A stretch of DNA of 35,006 nt from an uncultured Gammaproteobacteria bacterium (GTDB lineage Bacteria; Pseudomonadota; Gammaproteobacteria; Poriferisulfidales; GCA-002705445), in the NCBI GenBank assembly GCA_913065025.1, contig CAJYAP010000011.1, positions 1-35,006 on the forward strand, given 5' to 3'. This document shows, piece by piece, positions 198 to 32,889 of the stretch (position 1 is its first letter; each line of letters begins with the position of its first letter). A program made the position numbers and the translations under genes. Below the pieces are notes generated by a model. The model had not been told where the DNA came from, did no database searches, and worked only from the letters and a program-made list of their open reading frames with translations.

Positions 198-1100
198 TTA
201 CATAAGACATGCTTTTAAATTATTTGCGATATTTCTCAAAAGGTTTGTATACATCTCTTTTCCAGGTTTAATGTCTGCTCCTAGGGGGTCAAGCACACCA
301 ACTTTTGTGTTTGTATCTTCTATTACTGTATCAACAATTTTTGCTCTAAACTGCGGTTCTTTAAATACACAAGTTGCATTTAAGTTCTTAATTTTTGTCT
401 TAATTTTAATAATTCTTTTTACTGATGGTGATATCTCTGGATCAAGCAATATAGAGCCTGCAGGTTTTAAATTATATGTTTTTTCAAAATATTGATAAGC
501 GTCATGAAATACAATATAAGGTTTATTCTGAATTGGTGCTAACATTGATTTAATTGATAAGTCAGTTTTTTTGATCTCCTTTATAATGTTTTTTGCATTT
601 AATTTGTAAGTATTAATATTTTCTGGATAAACCTTGCTTAATTCTCTAGTAATTCCTTTGACAATTTGAATTGCATTATTAGGGTCTAACCAAAAATGAA
701 CATCATAGGAACCATGTCCATGATCATGATGATCATGCCCATCTTCTTCCCAGTTATCATCTTCTCTTACCGAAAGAAGTTTTAATTGCTTCATTTTTGA
801 AACTTGAACAACACTAATGTTTTTTGGTAAACCTCTAACAGTTTTTTTCAACGCTGACTCCAGCTGATTATCTATATAAAAAACAATTTTTGCGTTATTA
901 AGAAGTTTTGCGTGTGACGGCTTAAGAGCAAAATTGTGCGGTGACATGCTTCCATCTATCAAAAGTGAAACTGAGTTACTTCCTTCTGATATTGCACTTA
1001 CTAAAGAATGGAGTGGTTTAACGCTTACAACAATTTCACTTGAAAAAGCATTGTTACTAAGAATAATACTAAATATGATTATTAATGTTTTTTTTGTCAT
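198..1100 (-). CDS. znuA: Zinc ABC transporter periplasmic binding protein ZnuA
   Basis: Captures Zn2+ in the periplasm and delivers it to ZnuB/ZnuC. The protein is 300 residues from the ATG at 1100, which starts a clean signal peptide (about residues 1-20, ending AFSS). An upstream in-frame ATG at 1160 would put a charged extension before the signal peptide and run through the operator, so it is rejected. Likely zinc ligands are H55 (SPHNF), H135 (VHFWLDP), H199 (FHDAY) and D271 (LDPLG). A His/Asp-rich loop spans about 113-131, as in proteobacterial ZnuA. C244 and C298 could form the C-terminal disulfide known in the E. coli protein. It is divergent from zur-znuC-znuB across a Zur-type palindrome, which fixes it as zinc rather than manganese uptake. 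Confidence 0.95.
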   Translation of the reverse strand: MTKKTLIIIFSIILSNNAFSSEIVVSVKPLHSLVSAISEGSNSVSLLIDGSMSPHNFALKPSHAKLLNNAKIVFYIDNQLESALKKTVRGLPKNISVVQVSKMKQLKLLSVREDDNWEEDGHDHHDHGHGSYDVHFWLDPNNAIQIVKGITRELSKVYPENINTYKLNAKNIIKEIKKTDLSIKSMLAPIQNKPYIVFHDAYQYFEKTYNLKPAGSILLDPEISPSVKRIIKIKTKIKNLNATCVFKEPQFRAKIVDTVIEDTNTKVGVLDPLGADIKPGKEMYTNLLRNIANNLKACLM

Positions 1101-1179: not shown

Positions 1180-1638
1180 ATGCGCAATTGTAAAGATCAC
1201 AAAACTTGTATCAATGAAGCTTTAATAAAAGCTGAAACAATATGTAAACAAAAAGGTGTTAAGTTTACTAAACTTAGAAAACAGGTTTTAAAGCTAATAT
1301 GGAAGAGTCATTCTTACGTAAAAGCATATGATCTTTTAGAAGAACTAAAAAAAATTGATAGCTCCGCAAAACCACCAACGGTTTATAGATCTTTAGACTT
1401 TTTAATAGATAATGGATTTATTCACAAAGTTCAAAGTCTAAATGCTTTTGTAGCATGCACTCACCCGCAAGAACACAAAGAATGCTATTTTCTGATCTGC
1501 AAAAATTGCAAAAGTATTGAAGAGTGCTGTTCTGAAAAGATAAGTAAAGTTATGAATTCTGAAGCAACGAGAAATAATTTTAATACAAATCAGGTGACAT
1601 TAGAAATATCAGGGATTTGCCAGGAATGTATAAATTAA
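1180..1638 (+). CDS. zur: Zinc uptake regulator Zur (Fur family)
   Basis: Fur-family repressor that binds DNA with Zn2+ as corepressor. It has 152 residues, usual for the family. The N-terminal winged helix carries PPTVYRSLDFLIDNGFIHKV (about 65-84), the family's recognition-helix region. The dimerisation half has the structural-zinc pairs C107-x2-C110 and C147-x2-C150. H82, C93, H99 and a nearby acidic residue are plausible regulatory-site ligands. Zur rather than Fur is called because it heads znuCB and because a Zur-type operator lies 32 bp before its ATG. The short leader has no clear Shine-Dalgarno. Its TAA is followed at once by the znuC ATG. Confidence 0.92.
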   Translation: MRNCKDHKTCINEALIKAETICKQKGVKFTKLRKQVLKLIWKSHSYVKAYDLLEELKKIDSSAKPPTVYRSLDFLIDNGFIHKVQSLNAFVACTHPQEHKECYFLICKNCKSIEECCSEKISKVMNSEATRNNFNTNQVTLEISGICQECIN

Positions 1639-2364
1639 ATGTCTTATTTAATTCAGGCAAAAGACCTTTGTGTCAACCGACATAAAAAAAATATTCTTGA
1701 AAATGTATTTGTTGAAGTAAAGAAAAAAGATTTTATAACTATTATTGGTCCAAATGGAGCAGGCAAATCTGTTTTACTTGAATGTCTTATGGGATCTTTT
1801 CAACCTGATAGTGGTGAGATTAAAAAAAGAGAGAATTTGTCTGTAGGTTATATACCACAAAATTTTAATCCAGAAAGTTCTATGCCAATTAGTGTAAAAA
1901 GGTTTCTAACACTCAAAAGAAAATCTACTCCAAAAGAATTAATTGATATTTCAAAAGAAACCAATATTTCTGAAATTCTAGAGAAAAACTTATCAAATCT
2001 TTCTGGTGGCGAGCTGCAAAAAGTACTCTTGGCAAGGAGTTTATTGAATGAACCCGAGTTACTCATCTTGGACGAGCCTGCTCAAAATCTTGATATTAAA
2101 AATCAATTAAATTTTTATAACTTATTAACTCGAATTTACCAAAAAAGAGAATTAAGTATTTTAATGGTTTCACATGATTTACACATGGTCATGTCTTCTA
2201 CTAGACAAGTTATATGTTTATATCATCATGTTTGCTGCTCAGGCGAACCGCAAACTGTTGCTAAAGATCCCGAGTTTATTTCTTTGTTTGGAAATGATAT
2301 GGCTAAAATGATGTCGGTGTATCAACACACTCATAATCACTCGCATCAAGAGGACTCTCAATGA
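1639..2364 (+). CDS. znuC: Zinc ABC transporter ATPase ZnuC
   Basis: Cytoplasmic ATPase that powers zinc import through ZnuB. It has 241 residues. Walker A is GPNGAGKS at 37-44, the Q-loop PQ is at 73-74, the signature LSGGE is at 121-125, Walker B LLILDEP is at 141-147 and the switch histidine is H179. The C-terminus is His-rich (HTHNHSH, about 230-236), as often seen in ZnuC. The start abuts the zur stop with no spacer and the end overlaps znuB by an ATGA, so zur-znuC-znuB should be one translationally coupled operon. Confidence 0.95.
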   Translation: MSYLIQAKDLCVNRHKKNILENVFVEVKKKDFITIIGPNGAGKSVLLECLMGSFQPDSGEIKKRENLSVGYIPQNFNPESSMPISVKRFLTLKRKSTPKELIDISKETNISEILEKNLSNLSGGELQKVLLARSLLNEPELLILDEPAQNLDIKNQLNFYNLLTRIYQKRELSILMVSHDLHMVMSSTRQVICLYHHVCCSGEPQTVAKDPEFISLFGNDMAKMMSVYQHTHNHSHQEDSQ

Positions 2365-3155
2365 CTGAAGCATTTATGATAAGGGCAATAATTGCTGGGG
2401 TAGGTGTTGCTATTATAGCTGGTGCTATTGGATGCTTTGTTGTTTGGAGAAAAATGGCATATTTTGGCGACTCACTTGCACATAGCGCTTTGCTTGGCGT
2501 TGCTCTTGGGCTGGTAATGGGTATTAGTACTAACTTGGGTACTATAATTATATGTTCTATTTTTGCAGTTACATTAATTTGGCTACAACAAAAAAAAATA
2601 TTAGCTACTGACACACTTCTTGGCATTCTTGCGCACTCTGCTCTTTCTGTCGGAATGGTAACCTTAAGCTTGCTTGAAAGAAGCGTTGATCTTCACTCAT
2701 ATTTGTTTGGAGATATCCTAGCTGTAACTCCAACAGAAATATATTACATCTTATTTGGCGGTTTGATTGTATTAATTTTTTTGTATTTTAATTGGTCTTC
2801 TTTTGTTTTAATGACTATAGATGAAAAGTTGGCAAAAGCTGAAGGAATTAACATTGTACTTAATCAACTACAAATAATGTTATTAATGACTATTGTGGTT
2901 GCCGTCTCATTTAAAATCGTAGGCCTTTTACTAATAACATCCTTATTAATTATTCCTGCTGCAACTGCTAGGCAGCTTGCTCACTCACCAGAAATAATGG
3001 CCGTTGTTTCTTCGTTACTTGCAGTTTTCTCAGTTATCATTGGTATCTACAGTTCTCTGCATTTAGATACGCCTTCAGGGCCTTCAATTGTTGTGGCTTC
3101 AACATTAATATTTATTATGATGTCTATTTTTTCTTTGTTAATTAAAAGACATTAA
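2361..3155 (+). CDS. znuB: Zinc ABC transporter permease ZnuB
   Basis: Inner-membrane permease of the ABC-3 family, a dimer forming the zinc channel of ZnuABC. It has 264 residues, almost entirely hydrophobic segments with short polar loops (about eight membrane spans by eye). Family-typical stretches include the N-terminal GAIGCFVVWRKMAYFGDSLAHSALLG (partly quoted, about 22-47) and the KIVGLLLITSLLIIPAATAR region near 188-207. The ATG overlaps the znuC stop as ATGA. No clear terminator follows. The downstream barrel gene has its own Zur-box promoter. Confidence 0.94.
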   Translation: MTEAFMIRAIIAGVGVAIIAGAIGCFVVWRKMAYFGDSLAHSALLGVALGLVMGISTNLGTIIICSIFAVTLIWLQQKKILATDTLLGILAHSALSVGMVTLSLLERSVDLHSYLFGDILAVTPTEIYYILFGGLIVLIFLYFNWSSFVLMTIDEKLAKAEGINIVLNQLQIMLLMTIVVAVSFKIVGLLLITSLLIIPAATARQLAHSPEIMAVVSSLLAVFSVIIGIYSSLHLDTPSGPSIVVASTLIFIMMSIFSLLIKRH

Positions 3156-3189
3156 CAATTAAATACCAAAATAATATTAGACATTACTA

Positions 3190-3206
3190 ATGTTATATTA
3201 TAACAT
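3190..3206. promoter_or_regulatory. Second Zur box, before the His-rich barrel gene
   Basis: ATGTTATATTATAACAT is a perfect 17-bp palindrome around a central T. It is identical to the znuA/zur operator except for that central base. It overlaps a TATTAT (3196-3201) that could serve as a -10, putting a start site near 3208, about 28 nt before the preferred ATG at 3236. No good -35 is visible. No other copy was noticed in the window. Confidence 0.88.
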
Positions 3207-3235
3207 TCTCTCTTTAAAAATTACTGGTGGAATAT

Positions 3236-4384
3236 ATGAAAATAAAAACTTTTATTAAACTTTTTGCGCTAATTGCCTTATTACAAGGAGTTAGTCACGC
3301 TGCAGATGACGATCATGACCACGATCATTCAGCGCATGCAGATGAGCCCTTTTACGGGCATGTAGGAATTAGACTTCACGCCGATCATGTCAATGATGCA
3401 GGAGAAGGAGAAGAAGAAGTTAACGAATTATATACACACTCACATATAGAGCTTGGATCGAGAATTGCAGAGGGCCTCAATATCGATACTAACTTAAAAA
3501 TTGAAGGTGAAGCAGGCGGTCACAGCCATGGTGGAGTAAGTAGAACACATGATGGTGAAAGTAGAATTTTTGAAGATCACCCATTAATAGTTGAATCTTT
3601 AACACTTACATATAGTCATGAAGATTTTTCAGCTTATCTTGGAAAATTTAATCCAAAAGTAGGCCTTGATTATCATAGCTTTCCTGGACTTTGGTCATAT
3701 TCAATGATTGAAGAATATAAAATTGCTGAACGAATTGGTGCAGGCTTCAAGTATGGAGCGAACTTAGATGATTTTGGTACACATCAATTGAATATTAGTG
3801 CTTTTCATGTCGATACAACATTCTTAAGCGATTCGTTGTTAGATCAAAGAGGGCATACAAGTAAGGAAGATGGTGGTTTAGGAAATACAGAAGATTTTGA
3901 TTCATACTCAATCTCTCTAGGAGGAAAAGATTTTTATTCATTAGACAATAATATTGCTGAAAGACTTAGCTATAGATTTGGCTATGCACATCAAGAAGCC
4001 GGCACTGCAGAAAGTGATGAGGAAAGGTACTCTGCTTCGATAGTCTATAAAGAAAATTTTTCTGAAGGAATAAGTAAAACTTTTATCATTGAGTATATGA
4101 ATATTGAACATTACAGTGGAGAAGAAGCACATGACAGATCATACTTTACTTCTTCTTTAGGTTTAAAACTTTACCCTTGGAGTTTTGCCACTACATATAC
4201 TTTCGTCGACAATGATGCTCCAGAAGAACCTGATGAAAATCATGATGGAAAAATTCTGCAAATTTCAATTGGCTACAAGGTAGCTTCTGATGTGGAAGTT
4301 AATTTTGGATTTAAAAGAGCAGACGAAGAAAATGAAGTTAATGAAAGATTTGGACTAGGATTGAAATATAGCTTTGAGCTTTAA
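3236..4384 (+). CDS. His-rich outer-membrane beta-barrel protein, probable Zur-regulated zinc porin
   Basis: It has 382 residues with a signal peptide (about 1-22, ending SHA). The mature N-terminus is metal-ligand rich (HDHDHSAH at 27-34), with a second His cluster HSHGG at 96-100. The rest alternates polar and hydrophobic residues in barrel-like strands, many ending in aromatics, and closes with a strand ending YSFEL. There are no cysteines and I see no TonB box or plug domain, so it reads as a porin-like barrel and not a ZnuD-type receptor. The ATG at 3236 is chosen over an in-frame GTG at 3227 because GGTGG (3226-3230) sits 5 nt before it. A Zur box precedes the gene and a terminator follows it. 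Export of zinc or binding without transport are alternatives. The barrel and regulation calls are firm; zinc passage is inference. Confidence 0.8.
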   Translation: MKIKTFIKLFALIALLQGVSHAADDDHDHDHSAHADEPFYGHVGIRLHADHVNDAGEGEEEVNELYTHSHIELGSRIAEGLNIDTNLKIEGEAGGHSHGGVSRTHDGESRIFEDHPLIVESLTLTYSHEDFSAYLGKFNPKVGLDYHSFPGLWSYSMIEEYKIAERIGAGFKYGANLDDFGTHQLNISAFHVDTTFLSDSLLDQRGHTSKEDGGLGNTEDFDSYSISLGGKDFYSLDNNIAERLSYRFGYAHQEAGTAESDEERYSASIVYKENFSEGISKTFIIEYMNIEHYSGEEAHDRSYFTSSLGLKLYPWSFATTYTFVDNDAPEEPDENHDGKILQISIGYKVASDVEVNFGFKRADEENEVNERFGLGLKYSFEL

Positions 4385-4423: not shown

Positions 4424-4458
4424 AAGCCCATGATTCATTTGAAAAGTGGGCTTTTTTT
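4424..4458 (+). terminator. Rho-independent terminator of the barrel gene
   Basis: AAGCCCA (4424-4430) pairs with TGGGCTT (4447-4453) across a 16-nt loop, followed by a run of T to 4458. It lies about 40 bp after the barrel-gene stop and would separate the zinc locus from the tRNA gene. Confidence 0.75.
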
Positions 4459-4544: not shown

Positions 4545-4621
4545 GGCCCTGTAGCTCAGTTGGTTAGAGCAGTGGACTCATAATCCATTTGTCGTAGGTT
4601 CGAGTCCTACCGGGGCCACCA
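4545..4621 (+). tRNA. tRNA-Ile2 (CAT anticodon, lysidine-modified type)
   Basis: A 77-nt cloverleaf with CCA encoded (4619-4621). The acceptor GGCCCTG pairs with CGGGGCC (4611-4617), the D-arm region is GTAGCTCAGTTGGTTAGAGC, the anticodon CAT is at 4579-4581, and the T-loop is GTTCGAGTC. CAT could mean elongator Met. However, acceptor pairs C4-G69 and C5-G68 are the known TilS recognition pairs of tRNA-Ile2, whereas E. coli elongator tRNA-Met has U-A and A-U there. I therefore call it the AUA-reading isoleucine tRNA. Confidence 0.8.
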
Positions 4622-12998: not shown

Positions 12999-13499
12999 AT
13001 GTTCAAACTAATCAAATTAGAAGCTATTGGTTTAATTATATGTATATTATCTCTGCTAATTGCATATATATACTTTGATTTAGTTAAGCAACTTGCAGCT
13101 TGCACTCTTTGTGTTTTGGATAGATTTTTACTATTTGGTACGGCGATAATATTTGCCGTTATTTTAACCACAAGAAGAAAATATTTTTTTAAAACACTGC
13201 TTTCTTTTAATCTAGTTTTATGTGTAATTGGCATCATAAGCACAATAAGACATATATGGTTACAAAAATTTTATGACGAATCTTCTATGGATGGATTTGG
13301 TTGTGGTGGAGATTTCTTTTATTATATTTCTACATTGCCGATTTTAGATGCAATTATAAATATTTTTGATAATCCAACTCCATGTAACGATATCAAATGG
13401 GAGCTTTTTGGACTTTCAATTCCAATGTATACATTTATTTTATTCGTTATATTATTTATAATCTCAATTAAATTATTATTTAAAGGAAAACATGATTAG
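12999..13499 (+). CDS. dsbB: Disulfide bond formation protein DsbB
   Basis: Inner-membrane quinone reductase that re-oxidises periplasmic DsbA. It has 166 residues and four membrane spans. The first periplasmic cysteine pair is C35/C38 (CTLC) with R42 after it. The second pair is C102 and C129, the latter in TPCNDIKWELFGLSIP, the family's C-x-W-x-LFGLS hallmark. Positions agree closely with E. coli DsbB. The next gene overlaps it by 8 bp, so the two are co-translated. Confidence 0.93.
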   Translation: MFKLIKLEAIGLIICILSLLIAYIYFDLVKQLAACTLCVLDRFLLFGTAIIFAVILTTRRKYFFKTLLSFNLVLCVIGIISTIRHIWLQKFYDESSMDGFGCGGDFFYYISTLPILDAIINIFDNPTPCNDIKWELFGLSIPMYTFILFVILFIISIKLLFKGKHD

Positions 13500-13908
13500 T
13501 ACAAAAAGAATTGCTCTTTTCATTATTTTATTATCTATATTTAGCTTATCTCATAGTGAAAATCATAATAAACCCTCAATTGAACTTGAAGGAGTCGTTG
13601 ATGGAGGCACATACAAATCTCCCATACAATTAAATTTTATTGTAAAAAATATGAAAGTTCTTAAAGCAGGTATAAAAGAAAAAAATAGCGGTCATCACCA
13701 TTTATTAATAAATTTAGATGCACTACCAGATTTAAAAATGCCGCTTCCTATGACAGAGAATATTATACATTTTGGAAAAGCTCAAACATCTACATCGCTT
13801 GACTTAGAATCTGGCAAATATACTATTCAACTTTTATTTGCAGATTACAGTCACACGCCACATGAAGTTCCTCTGATAACGGATAAAGTAACTTTTTTTA
13901 TTAAGTAG
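13492..13908 (+). CDS. Exported DUF4399-family protein
   Basis: It has 138 residues: a signal peptide (about 1-22) then one small beta-rich domain matching the DUF4399 pattern. Recognisable pieces are NSGHHHLLINL (66-75), IIHFGKAQTSTSLDLESGKY (91-110) and a closing FADYSHTPHEVPL. The conserved histidines H68-H70, H93, H121 and H124 could form a metal site, but that is inference. The family's function is unknown to me. It overlaps dsbB and precedes the TupA-like gene by 26 bp, so the three probably form one operon. Confidence 0.75.
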   Translation: MISTKRIALFIILLSIFSLSHSENHNKPSIELEGVVDGGTYKSPIQLNFIVKNMKVLKAGIKEKNSGHHHLLINLDALPDLKMPLPMTENIIHFGKAQTSTSLDLESGKYTIQLLFADYSHTPHEVPLITDKVTFFIK

Positions 13909-13934
13909 ATTAAATTTTTAAAAGAGCTAATAGT

Positions 13935-14738
13935 ATGTTTAAAAAGATTGTTTTTGTATTTTTAGTTTCAAGCTTTTCTCATTCATCTGAATTTTTAGTC
14001 GTGCAATCAACTACATCAACTTCCGACTCAGGATTCTACGACTTTTTACTTCCAATTTATGAAAAGAAAACTGGTATTGATATAAGAGTTGTAGCTGTAG
14101 GTACCGGTCAAGCTATTAAGAATGCTGAAAATGGTGATGGTGATTTACTTATAGTTCATTCAGAAGATGATGAAAGGGACTTTGTATTGAAAGGTTTTGG
14201 CATAGAAAGAAAAGAGTTAATGTATAATGATTTTATAATAATTGGCCCTAAAAATGACCCAGAAAATTTGAAAAATAAAAAAAGTGTTAAGGATGTTTTT
14301 AACGCTATAAAAAATAAAAAGCTTCCTTTTTTAACAAGAGGCGATAACAGTGGTACTCATAAAAAAGAAGTCTCATTGTGGGAAAGTGCCGAGATAACGC
14401 CAGGTTTGCTTGATCCAAAGCATTATATTGATGCTGGAAGGGGTATGGGAGCTACATTAAACATGGCTGCTAGTATGGATGCATATACAATAACGGATCG
14501 AGGTACATGGCTAAGTTTTAATAATAAACAAGATTTGGGAATCTTATTTTCTGGGGTCCCCCCGTTGCATAATCAATACAGTGTAATTGTTATTAATCCT
14601 GAAAAGCACCCACATGTAAAATATAAATTAGCAAAAGATTTATCAAATTGGCTTATTAGTAATGAAGGGCAGGAATTAATTTCTAAATATAAAATTTTAG
14701 GACAACAATTATTTTTTCCAAATGCAAAAAATAACTAA
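13935..14738 (+). CDS. TupA-like tungstate-binding periplasmic protein
   Basis: Solute-binding protein of the tungstate ABC importer type. It has 267 residues and a signal peptide (about 1-18). The oxyanion-binding start VVQSTTSTSDSGFYDFLLP (22-40) and VGTGQAIKNAENGDGDLLIVHS (partly quoted, about 55-76) are characteristic, followed by YNDFIIIGP and TRGDNSGTHKKE. Tungstate is the family norm; molybdate is possible. No TupB permease or TupC ATPase is adjacent, as convergent hemF follows with a 4-bp overlap. An AGAG lies before the ATG. Confidence 0.85.
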   Translation: MFKKIVFVFLVSSFSHSSEFLVVQSTTSTSDSGFYDFLLPIYEKKTGIDIRVVAVGTGQAIKNAENGDGDLLIVHSEDDERDFVLKGFGIERKELMYNDFIIIGPKNDPENLKNKKSVKDVFNAIKNKKLPFLTRGDNSGTHKKEVSLWESAEITPGLLDPKHYIDAGRGMGATLNMAASMDAYTITDRGTWLSFNNKQDLGILFSGVPPLHNQYSVIVINPEKHPHVKYKLAKDLSNWLISNEGQELISKYKILGQQLFFPNAKNN

Positions 14739-31566: not shown

Positions 31567-32889
31567 TTAGAACATTGTTAAGAAACCTAAAGCGATGATT
31601 TCAACTTCACCGTTTACTGTTCCTAAACCACGTCCACCGATACCTGTACCGTATGTACCGTATGTATCGTTACTTACTTCAATGTAAGATAGTGATAATT
31701 CTGTTGAATCACCTAATGCATAGAACACACCAAGCATTGTAGAATCAGCACCAGTTTCAGCTGAGTTGTCAGTAGATAAGCCTGTAGCAGACATGTCTAA
31801 GTCATCAGCTTCTGCATATGAGAATCTGAAGTCAATGTTTCCGCCTGGAGCATATTTACCAGAAACTAACCAAGCGTCTCTGTCAAATTTTACATTGTTA
31901 CCAGCTGTTACTGTTCCGAAAACGTCTGTAGAGTAACCAAAGTCAGCTAATACGTCTGCTGATGTATCTTTAAAGTCATATTCTACATTTTCGAACATAG
32001 CAGAAAGTGTTAATGAAGCGCCGTTACCTAAATCAGCAATATAACGACCAGCGATACGCCAAGACTCAGATTCTGAATCTAACATAGCATCACCAGCTGT
32101 ATCACCTAAAGTACCAGCTGCCCACTCATCATGTTTTTGATAAGTTAAAGCTAACCATAATGGTCCTTCGGAATATGCGATACCTGTTGAGTAAATTACT
32201 GGATCTACTTCACCAGATGCACCTGATCCACCAGTTGTAGCTGTTTCATCTCTATCACCTACTGTATAAGCAAATCTGTATGAAACGTTACCTGTTGAAC
32301 CCATGTACTGAATGATTTCTTCTTGTCTTCTGTTAAAACCTTGATCGTATCCACCTTTAGCAGCTGTTGCGTATGTGAACCCACCAAAATCACCAACGTT
32401 GTAGAAGATTGTTTGCGCACCAACAGAACCCATAATGTTAGTATGAGATGCGTTACCCGCGTCATACCAAGGATCTACCCAACCAGCTACCATTTCGTTG
32501 TATGGTAGTAACCAAGTAGCCATCATTATTTCACCCATTGACCCAGAGATACCTACTTTAGAGTTACGGTTACACCATCCTACACTTCCTCCGTAATCAT
32601 TCATGTAAGTAAACTGCTCACAACGCCAAGTTACTTTTAAGCCTTCAATACCTGTATCTACAAAACCTAAGAAACCGATGTTTCCAGCATTACCTCTAAT
32701 TTCAGATAAATCTGATTGAGATCCTGGTGCACCATGTTCAATAAATTCGTAGGTATGATTTTGCCAGCCGTAGATTGTAATTGGTTCCCCGTAGGCACCA
32801 ACTCCACCACCGCCCCAGCCTGCGTTTGCAGTAACAGGAAGCATGGCCAATGCTCCGGCTAGCATACTTGCTAAGATTTTTATTTTCAT
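31567..32889 (-). CDS. Major outer-membrane porin
   Basis: General Gram-negative porin-type barrel. It has 440 residues with signal peptide 1-23 (ending ANA), a Gly-rich mature start (GWGGGGVGAYGE) and repeated amphipathic strands. It ends in Phe, the BamA recognition residue. C90 and C106 could close a loop by disulfide. Strong expression is suggested by a good AGGAG Shine-Dalgarno 6 nt before the ATG, codon use visibly richer in G+C than neighbours, a strong terminator and a long 5' leader. Substrate cannot be told from sequence. Confidence 0.88.
   Translation of the reverse strand: MKIKILASMLAGALAMLPVTANAGWGGGGVGAYGEPITIYGWQNHTYEFIEHGAPGSQSDLSEIRGNAGNIGFLGFVDTGIEGLKVTWRCEQFTYMNDYGGSVGWCNRNSKVGISGSMGEIMMATWLLPYNEMVAGWVDPWYDAGNASHTNIMGSVGAQTIFYNVGDFGGFTYATAAKGGYDQGFNRRQEEIIQYMGSTGNVSYRFAYTVGDRDETATTGGSGASGEVDPVIYSTGIAYSEGPLWLALTYQKHDEWAAGTLGDTAGDAMLDSESESWRIAGRYIADLGNGASLTLSAMFENVEYDFKDTSADVLADFGYSTDVFGTVTAGNNVKFDRDAWLVSGKYAPGGNIDFRFSYAEADDLDMSATGLSTDNSAETGADSTMLGVFYALGDSTELSLSYIEVSNDTYGTYGTGIGGRGLGTVNGEVEIIALGFLTMF

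Follow-up and report, generated by a model that had tools for sequence, protein, structure and literature searches.

A predicted histidine-rich, TonB-independent porin linked to the Zur-znu zinc-uptake locus of an uncultured gammaproteobacterial lineage

Introduction

Little is known about how zinc crosses the outer membrane where TonB zinc receptors are not used. One review of Zur regulation tabulates the outer-membrane targets of Gram-negative species, and nearly all of them are TonB receptors (PMC6103462). A 35,006-bp stretch of DNA (hereafter, the window) from an uncultured, probably marine gammaproteobacterium raises the question anew, since a gene for a histidine-rich outer-membrane barrel lies there next to the genes for zinc uptake across the inner membrane. 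A first-pass annotation of the sequence had proposed that this barrel is a passive zinc porin under Zur control. Here, we analyze the locus, its relatives and the predicted structure of the barrel, and consider how far such a role is supported.

Results and Discussion

Gene content of the locus

Pfam and NCBIfam searches identify a complete zinc-uptake locus, in which znuA is divergent from zur-znuC-znuB and the barrel gene directly follows the latter three, as the first-pass annotation had described; znuA, which it did not mention, also belongs to the locus. The features are:

198–1100, minus strand: znuA, periplasmic zinc-binding protein (Pfam ZnuA, E 7e-64; NCBIfam ZnuA, 250 bits, under the cut-off of 268)
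1180–1638, plus strand: zur, Fur-family zinc uptake regulator (Pfam FUR, 58.8 bits; top NCBIfam match Zur, 131 bits, under the cut-off)
1639–2364, plus strand: znuC, ATPase (NCBIfam ZnuC, E 6e-77)
2361–3155, plus strand: znuB, permease (Pfam ABC-3, E 5e-70)
3236–4384, plus strand: barrel gene, predicted zinc-linked His-rich porin of 382 residues (open reading frame; 16 strands in two models; porin fold matches)
4424–4458, plus strand: terminator-like inverted repeat AAGCCCA...TGGGCTT with a T run, 3' of the barrel gene (read from the sequence)
4545–4621: tRNA-Met, downstream of the barrel gene

ZnuA has a His-rich loop, HDHHDHGHG. The barrel reading frame extends from an ATG at 3236, 81 bp past the znuB stop, to a stop at 4384; position 3190, previously given as its beginning, belongs to a Zur box. 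The repeat at 4424–4458 was not detected by a terminator scanner with a loop length limit of 8. Elsewhere in the window, the region 13492–14738 encodes a small exported protein of the DUF4399 family that contains an HHH motif and, after it, a PBP_like_2-type periplasmic binding protein, which perhaps binds tungstate or another oxyanion.

Zur boxes

Two Zur boxes and a promoter-like element are found in the intergenic regions:

1131–1149: Zur box 1, between znuA and zur, AATGTTATAATATAACATA (18 of 19 positions match the consensus; perfect 15-bp core at 1133–1147)
3178–3206, plus strand: promoter-like TAGACA-17-TAACAT (consensus scan, 9 of 12 positions, not above chance alone)
3189–3207: Zur box 2, before the barrel gene, AATGTTATATTATAACATT (exact 19-bp consensus, 28 bp 5' of the ATG)

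The sequence at 3189–3207 is identical to the Zur box of Yersinia (19 bp), and it also forms the core of GAAATGTTATANTATAACATTTC, the gamma-proteobacterial consensus (PMC2706843). By exact matching, the perfect core TGTTATANTATAACA occurs at two sites in the whole 983-kb genome, one at znuA/zur and the other at the barrel gene. Genomes of the genus contain between 0 and 3 perfect cores each, and a reversed control pattern matches once in the window's genome and nowhere in the other ten. Exact whole-genome matching was adopted in place of a search of the window with three mismatches, which was uninformative (six sites found versus 7.1 expected). Sites with two mismatches elsewhere in the genome were fewer than in the reversed control (10 versus 29) and were set aside. 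The −10 hexamer of the promoter-like pair falls within Zur box 2, the arrangement expected for repression, although pairs of this kind often arise by chance.

Perfect boxes outside the znu locus each precede a gene of the CobW family (in genomes G002 and G009, and at both sites in G008). The CobW-family protein of G008 is identified as ZigA (NCBIfam, 692 bits; cut-off 600). In all, three relatives have zigA-like genes that are each preceded by a perfect Zur box (L104:3612–4823, L105:1228–2439, L106:2856–4073 and L107:4209–5420); no further perfect box of the zigA type was found in the window's genome, which is 83% complete. ZigA-type genes are known Zur targets, and the boxes before them therefore support the motif as a real Zur site independently of the znu/barrel locus. 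The palindrome originally noted in front of the barrel gene is thus an exact 19-bp box with an independent check, and its perfect conservation together with the zigA boxes supports, at the level of sequence, the assignment of the barrel gene to the Zur regulon.

Predicted structure of the barrel

The barrel protein begins with a signal peptide, as the first-pass annotation had reported:

3236–3301, plus strand: signal peptide, MKIKTFIKLFALIALLQGVSHA followed by AD, cleavage likely after SHA (residue 22) (read by eye; helix at residues 2–19 in the model)

No Pfam family scores above its cut-off for the barrel, the top match being Porin_4 (19.8 bits versus 27). Weak similarity to Porin_4 is seen in 9 of the 10 barrel members (best E 1.8e-6), and a distant Phaeobacter homologue passes the cut-off with 28.1 bits. 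The barrel is matched by no NCBIfam model and, in a PDB sequence search, by no solved structure. Two AlphaFold2 models, with and without the signal peptide, were built with ten relatives. Both contain 16 strands and are of moderate confidence (mean pLDDT 67–68, pTM 0.66–0.67), with the His tail and loop L2 as their least certain parts. In Foldseek searches with either model, the best matches are PorB, OmpU, OmpT, Omp32 and OmpF, with E-values of 1e-10 to 1e-11 and TM-scores of about 0.5–0.6. The barrel is thus predicted to adopt a 16-strand, TonB-independent porin fold.

The earlier statement that the barrel has no plug holds, in that Pfam reveals no match to PF07715 or to any other TonB-receptor family, while the same plug model does find a BtuB-like receptor in the genome. 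With 382 residues and 16 strands in two models of moderate confidence, the protein does not have the 22-strand barrel of a TonB receptor, and no such receptor is among the best 50 Foldseek matches of either model. Its N-terminus is a His/Asp tail, in which no TonB box (a short and degenerate motif) was spotted by eye. The BtuB-like protein is the one plug-bearing TonB receptor found in the genome and is located away from any Zur box. PF00593 detected no TonB-receptor barrel in the genome; a complete absence of TonB receptors was rejected in view of the PF07715 match. The only ExbB-like protein encoded in the genome is TolQ, and no TonB_C match was obtained in the 11 genomes of the genus, where a divergent TonB could be missed by this search.

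The window encodes a second porin (31567–32889, minus strand), a 440-residue, His-poor (0.9%) Porin_4 protein that is probably the general porin of the host.

Histidine conservation and topology

The mature barrel contains 22 histidines in 360 residues, compared with 1.79% in the other proteins of the window (binomial P about 9e-7) and with roughly six-fold less in the general porin. It is also acidic (70 Asp and Glu versus 26 Lys and Arg). Four histidines within eight residues were reached in 1,857 of 20,000 shuffles, which is not unusual at this His content. Clustering was therefore discarded as evidence, and the case for the histidines rests on their enrichment and conservation. Sixteen of them (27, 29, 31, 34, 42, 48, 51, 68, 70, 96, 98, 105, 115, 147, 292 and 299) are found in nine or ten of the 10 zinc-linked proteins, and the same 16 columns are almost never His in eight distant homologues. 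Judging from these alignments, the zinc link and the histidines travel together, in one order as far as sampled.

The N-terminus of 16-strand porins usually lies in the periplasm, and loops L1–L8 and turns T1–T7 were assigned on this basis. All turns except T4 are short, in support of this orientation, and the alternation of polar and apolar residues is clear in strands 1–3. The regions of interest are as follows:

3314–3337, plus strand: HDHDHSAH tail, residues 27–34, before strand 1 (His 27, 29, 31 and 34 in 10 of 10 zinc-linked sequences; unstructured, pLDDT < 50)
3359–3385, plus strand: strand 1, residues 42–50, with H42, R46, H48 and D50 on the predicted lumen face (conservation and hydrophobicity alternation)
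3437–3451, plus strand: strand 2, residues 68–72, with H68, H70 and E72 on the predicted lumen face (conservation and hydrophobicity alternation)
3509–3583, plus strand: predicted extracellular loop L2, residues 92–116, with H96, H98, H105 and H115 (model, conservation, topology)
3650–3730, plus strand: predicted constriction loop L3, residues 139–165, with H147 (well-conserved stretch of the wider family; model, topology)
4112–4135, plus strand: predicted extracellular loop L6, residues 293–300, with H299; H292 lies just before it (conservation, topology)

The candidate L3 is a well-conserved, 27-residue loop between strands 5 and 6, assigned by its position rather than by folding into the pore. 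Both His clusters recognized at first sight are present, HDHDHSAH near the mature N-terminus and a second at residues 96–115 (HSHGGVSRTH...DH). The first-pass annotation implied that the N-terminal cluster concentrates Zn2+ at the pore from outside. The histidines are indeed specific to the zinc-linked subfamily; however, the HDHDHSAH tail is predicted to be periplasmic, or to reach into the lumen as in OmpU, and it is the second cluster, in L2, that is predicted to face outward. A third set, the lumen-facing H42, H48, H68 and H70, had gone unnoticed.

Linkage to znu in relatives

The barrel protein was sought in 55 genomes and then in 20 genomes of the order. Named relatives come from gammaproteobacterial metagenome-assembled genomes (MAGs) or single-cell genomes. 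Within the family, 10 genomes carry 11 barrel loci (71–100% identity). The order znuB, Zur box, barrel is maintained in all 11, with a perfect box core that is doubled in three genomes. A more distant barrel (48% identity, genome G019) is found in the arrangement zur-znuC-znuB-barrel, 13 bp after znuB, with a one-mismatch box before zur. Every barrel-bearing genome in the order therefore combines the barrel with Zur boxes and znu genes, as expected from the original proposal.

Some of these loci have peculiarities. The barrel of G019 comes from a MAG contig of 4.5 kb, and the zur-znu genes of this genome resemble those of family f1 more closely than those of its congeners (L011, L023), reflecting either horizontal transfer or mis-binning; loop L7 of this barrel bears a long His/Asp/Glu run. 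Two near-identical znuB-box-barrel loci are present in G011 on separate contigs, C9 and C27 (L020, L022); contamination of this MAG is 6%, and the two loci probably represent a mixture of two strains.

No znuB, barrel or perfect box was found in G007, which is 98% complete. At the syntenic site, a zur-like gene persists together with the neighbouring genes for a glycosyltransferase, a YhhQ-type protein and a nuclease, whereas znuA, znuC, znuB, the barrel gene and the box are missing. This is one case of joint loss of znuABC, barrel and box from the same site. The orphan zur-like gene (L111:6344–7725) adjoins genes for a small membrane protein and a 120-residue exported protein. G008 was not counted as a second joint loss, as it is 73% complete and still has two Zur boxes, each of them at a zigA-like gene. 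In family f3, which belongs to the same order, zur-znuCB is found with no barrel, indicating that znu does not require it.

Sampling of 369 genomes at the class level and 398 at the phylum level revealed no further znu-linked, His-rich member, and a scan of viral contigs gave no relatives of the barrel. Homologues away from znu genes, which the first-pass annotation had named as counting against its proposal, were met only at about 25% identity. These lie in unrelated neighbourhoods without zinc genes, beside ABC transport genes of the branched-chain amino-acid type, in a sugar-transport region or in the plasmid cluster described below, and they also lack the histidines. The porin fold by itself thus says nothing about zinc.

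Proposed function

We consider that the barrel is probably a Zur-repressed, TonB-independent porin that eases the entry of Zn2+ towards ZnuA. When zinc is plentiful, Zur would repress the barrel gene. When zinc is scarce, Zur would leave both boxes, and ZnuABC and the porin would be made together. Zn2+ would be drawn to loop L2 and the acidic surface, would pass the lumen histidines along strands 1 and 2 by diffusion, and would reach the N-terminal tail, either periplasmic or inserted in the lumen, after which the His-rich ZnuA would take over. The passive zinc porin originally suggested thus retains the Zur box, the znu linkage, the porin fold and the subfamily-specific histidines in its favour, and has to be revised in the placement of its tail. 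This small-genome lineage seems to use a passive, His-lined porin as the only outer-membrane member seen in its Zur regulon. If so, zinc would enter at low cost, with no energy from TonB, through a general porin fold that has been adapted to a single metal, and the residues named above could be tested directly in a laboratory strain.

A more specific version can be put forward tentatively. The barrel may be a dedicated zinc-selective porin, with a His/acid ladder running from L2 through H48, H68, H70 and H42 to a periplasmic HDHDHSAH and on to ZnuA, that replaces a TonB zinc receptor in this small-genome lineage.

The main rival, which we regard as unlikely, is a general, non-selective porin that is merely present in more copies under Zur in zinc shortage, its histidines adding little selectivity. 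The 16-strand general-porin fold is consistent with it, as are the His-poor members of the wider family in unrelated neighbourhoods and the precedent of MspD (PMC13098993). Against it, 16 histidines persist throughout the zinc-linked subfamily but hardly occur outside it, and a clear general porin is already encoded at 31567–32889.

His-rich tails can also buffer zinc, gate a pore, or bind nickel or copper. It is improbable, in our assessment, that the barrel acts chiefly in feedback rather than entry, its tail binding zinc at the periplasmic mouth and closing or tuning the channel or storing the metal. The predicted periplasmic location of HDHDHSAH would suit such a gate or buffer, and the N-terminal coil of OmpU enters the lumen and forms a second gate there (PMC5786005). 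Yet the histidines in the lumen and outer loops would be left unexplained, and a pore made only in zinc shortage hardly needs to be closed by zinc. It is very improbable that the barrel is a TonB-independent receptor that takes up zinc as a chelate or bound to a carrier protein instead of as free Zn2+: its outer loops are rich in charged and His residues and much zinc in oligotrophic seawater is organically bound, but passive entry through a pore with no plug cannot concentrate a chelate that is scarce, and no metallophore synthesis gene is seen in the window. Least probable of all is a role with nickel, copper or cobalt, or a structural metal site, since, although His/Asp clusters bind several divalent metals, the Zur box, the znuABC linkage and zigA in the same regulon point to zinc, and the conserved histidines are spread over tail, pore and loops instead of forming one site.

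Comparison with known systems

The porin proposed here resembles ZnuD and other Zur-regulated TonB-dependent receptors (of Neisseria, Acinetobacter, Pseudomonas, and ZnuK/L/M of Caulobacter) in pairing Zur-controlled zinc entry at the outer membrane with a ZnuABC-type importer. Those receptors have a plug domain and depend on TonB, whereas the barrel gives no match to a plug and is not long enough to form a receptor of 22 strands. MspD of Mycobacterium smegmatis is described as a Zur-controlled outer-membrane porin, induced by zinc starvation and by zur deletion, that is not energized by TonB and is proposed to feed ZnuABC (PMC13098993). Its architecture, an octamer of the mycobacterial Msp type, is unrelated to that of 16-strand Gram-negative porins, and the 18 residues that distinguish it from MspA make it less polar; the discussion of that report mentions no His-rich tail (PMC13098993). 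Synechococcus, which is cited in the MspD paper, was considered as a further precedent and rejected, as the Zur paper on strain WH8102 mentions no porin.

The predicted strand number, the long loop between strands 5 and 6, the fold matches and the weak Porin_4 similarity are shared with general 16-strand porins (PorB, OmpU, OmpT, Omp32, OmpF; Porin_4), from which the barrel differs by its sub-cut-off Porin_4 score, high His content and Zur control. The phosphate porins OprP and OprO, both among its fold matches, offer a parallel for a ladder of side chains that confers ion preference; theirs is an arginine ladder for phosphate, while the barrel would have a His/acid track for a cation. Zur-controlled zinc entry at the outer membrane, mostly through TonB receptors, and a mycobacterial Zur-controlled porin of unrelated architecture are known. 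Searches of the open-access literature gave no example of a 16-strand porin that is rich in His, linked to znu and controlled by Zur.

Homologues in Sulfitobacter, Phaeobacter and family f113 were examined as possible zinc loci and rejected, as no zinc genes are nearby. The Sulfitobacter and Phaeobacter homologue (about 25% identity, E 1e-11) is located on roseobacter plasmids in the cluster imelysin, porin, di-haem oxidoreductase or c-type cytochrome, imelysin, DUF1513 (L074:5465–11401 in Sulfitobacter; L075:5401–12438 in Phaeobacter). Like the barrel, it lies within an apparent metal-uptake operon; unlike the barrel, it has only one to six histidines. This homologue is probably linked to iron and may do for iron what the barrel is proposed to do for zinc.
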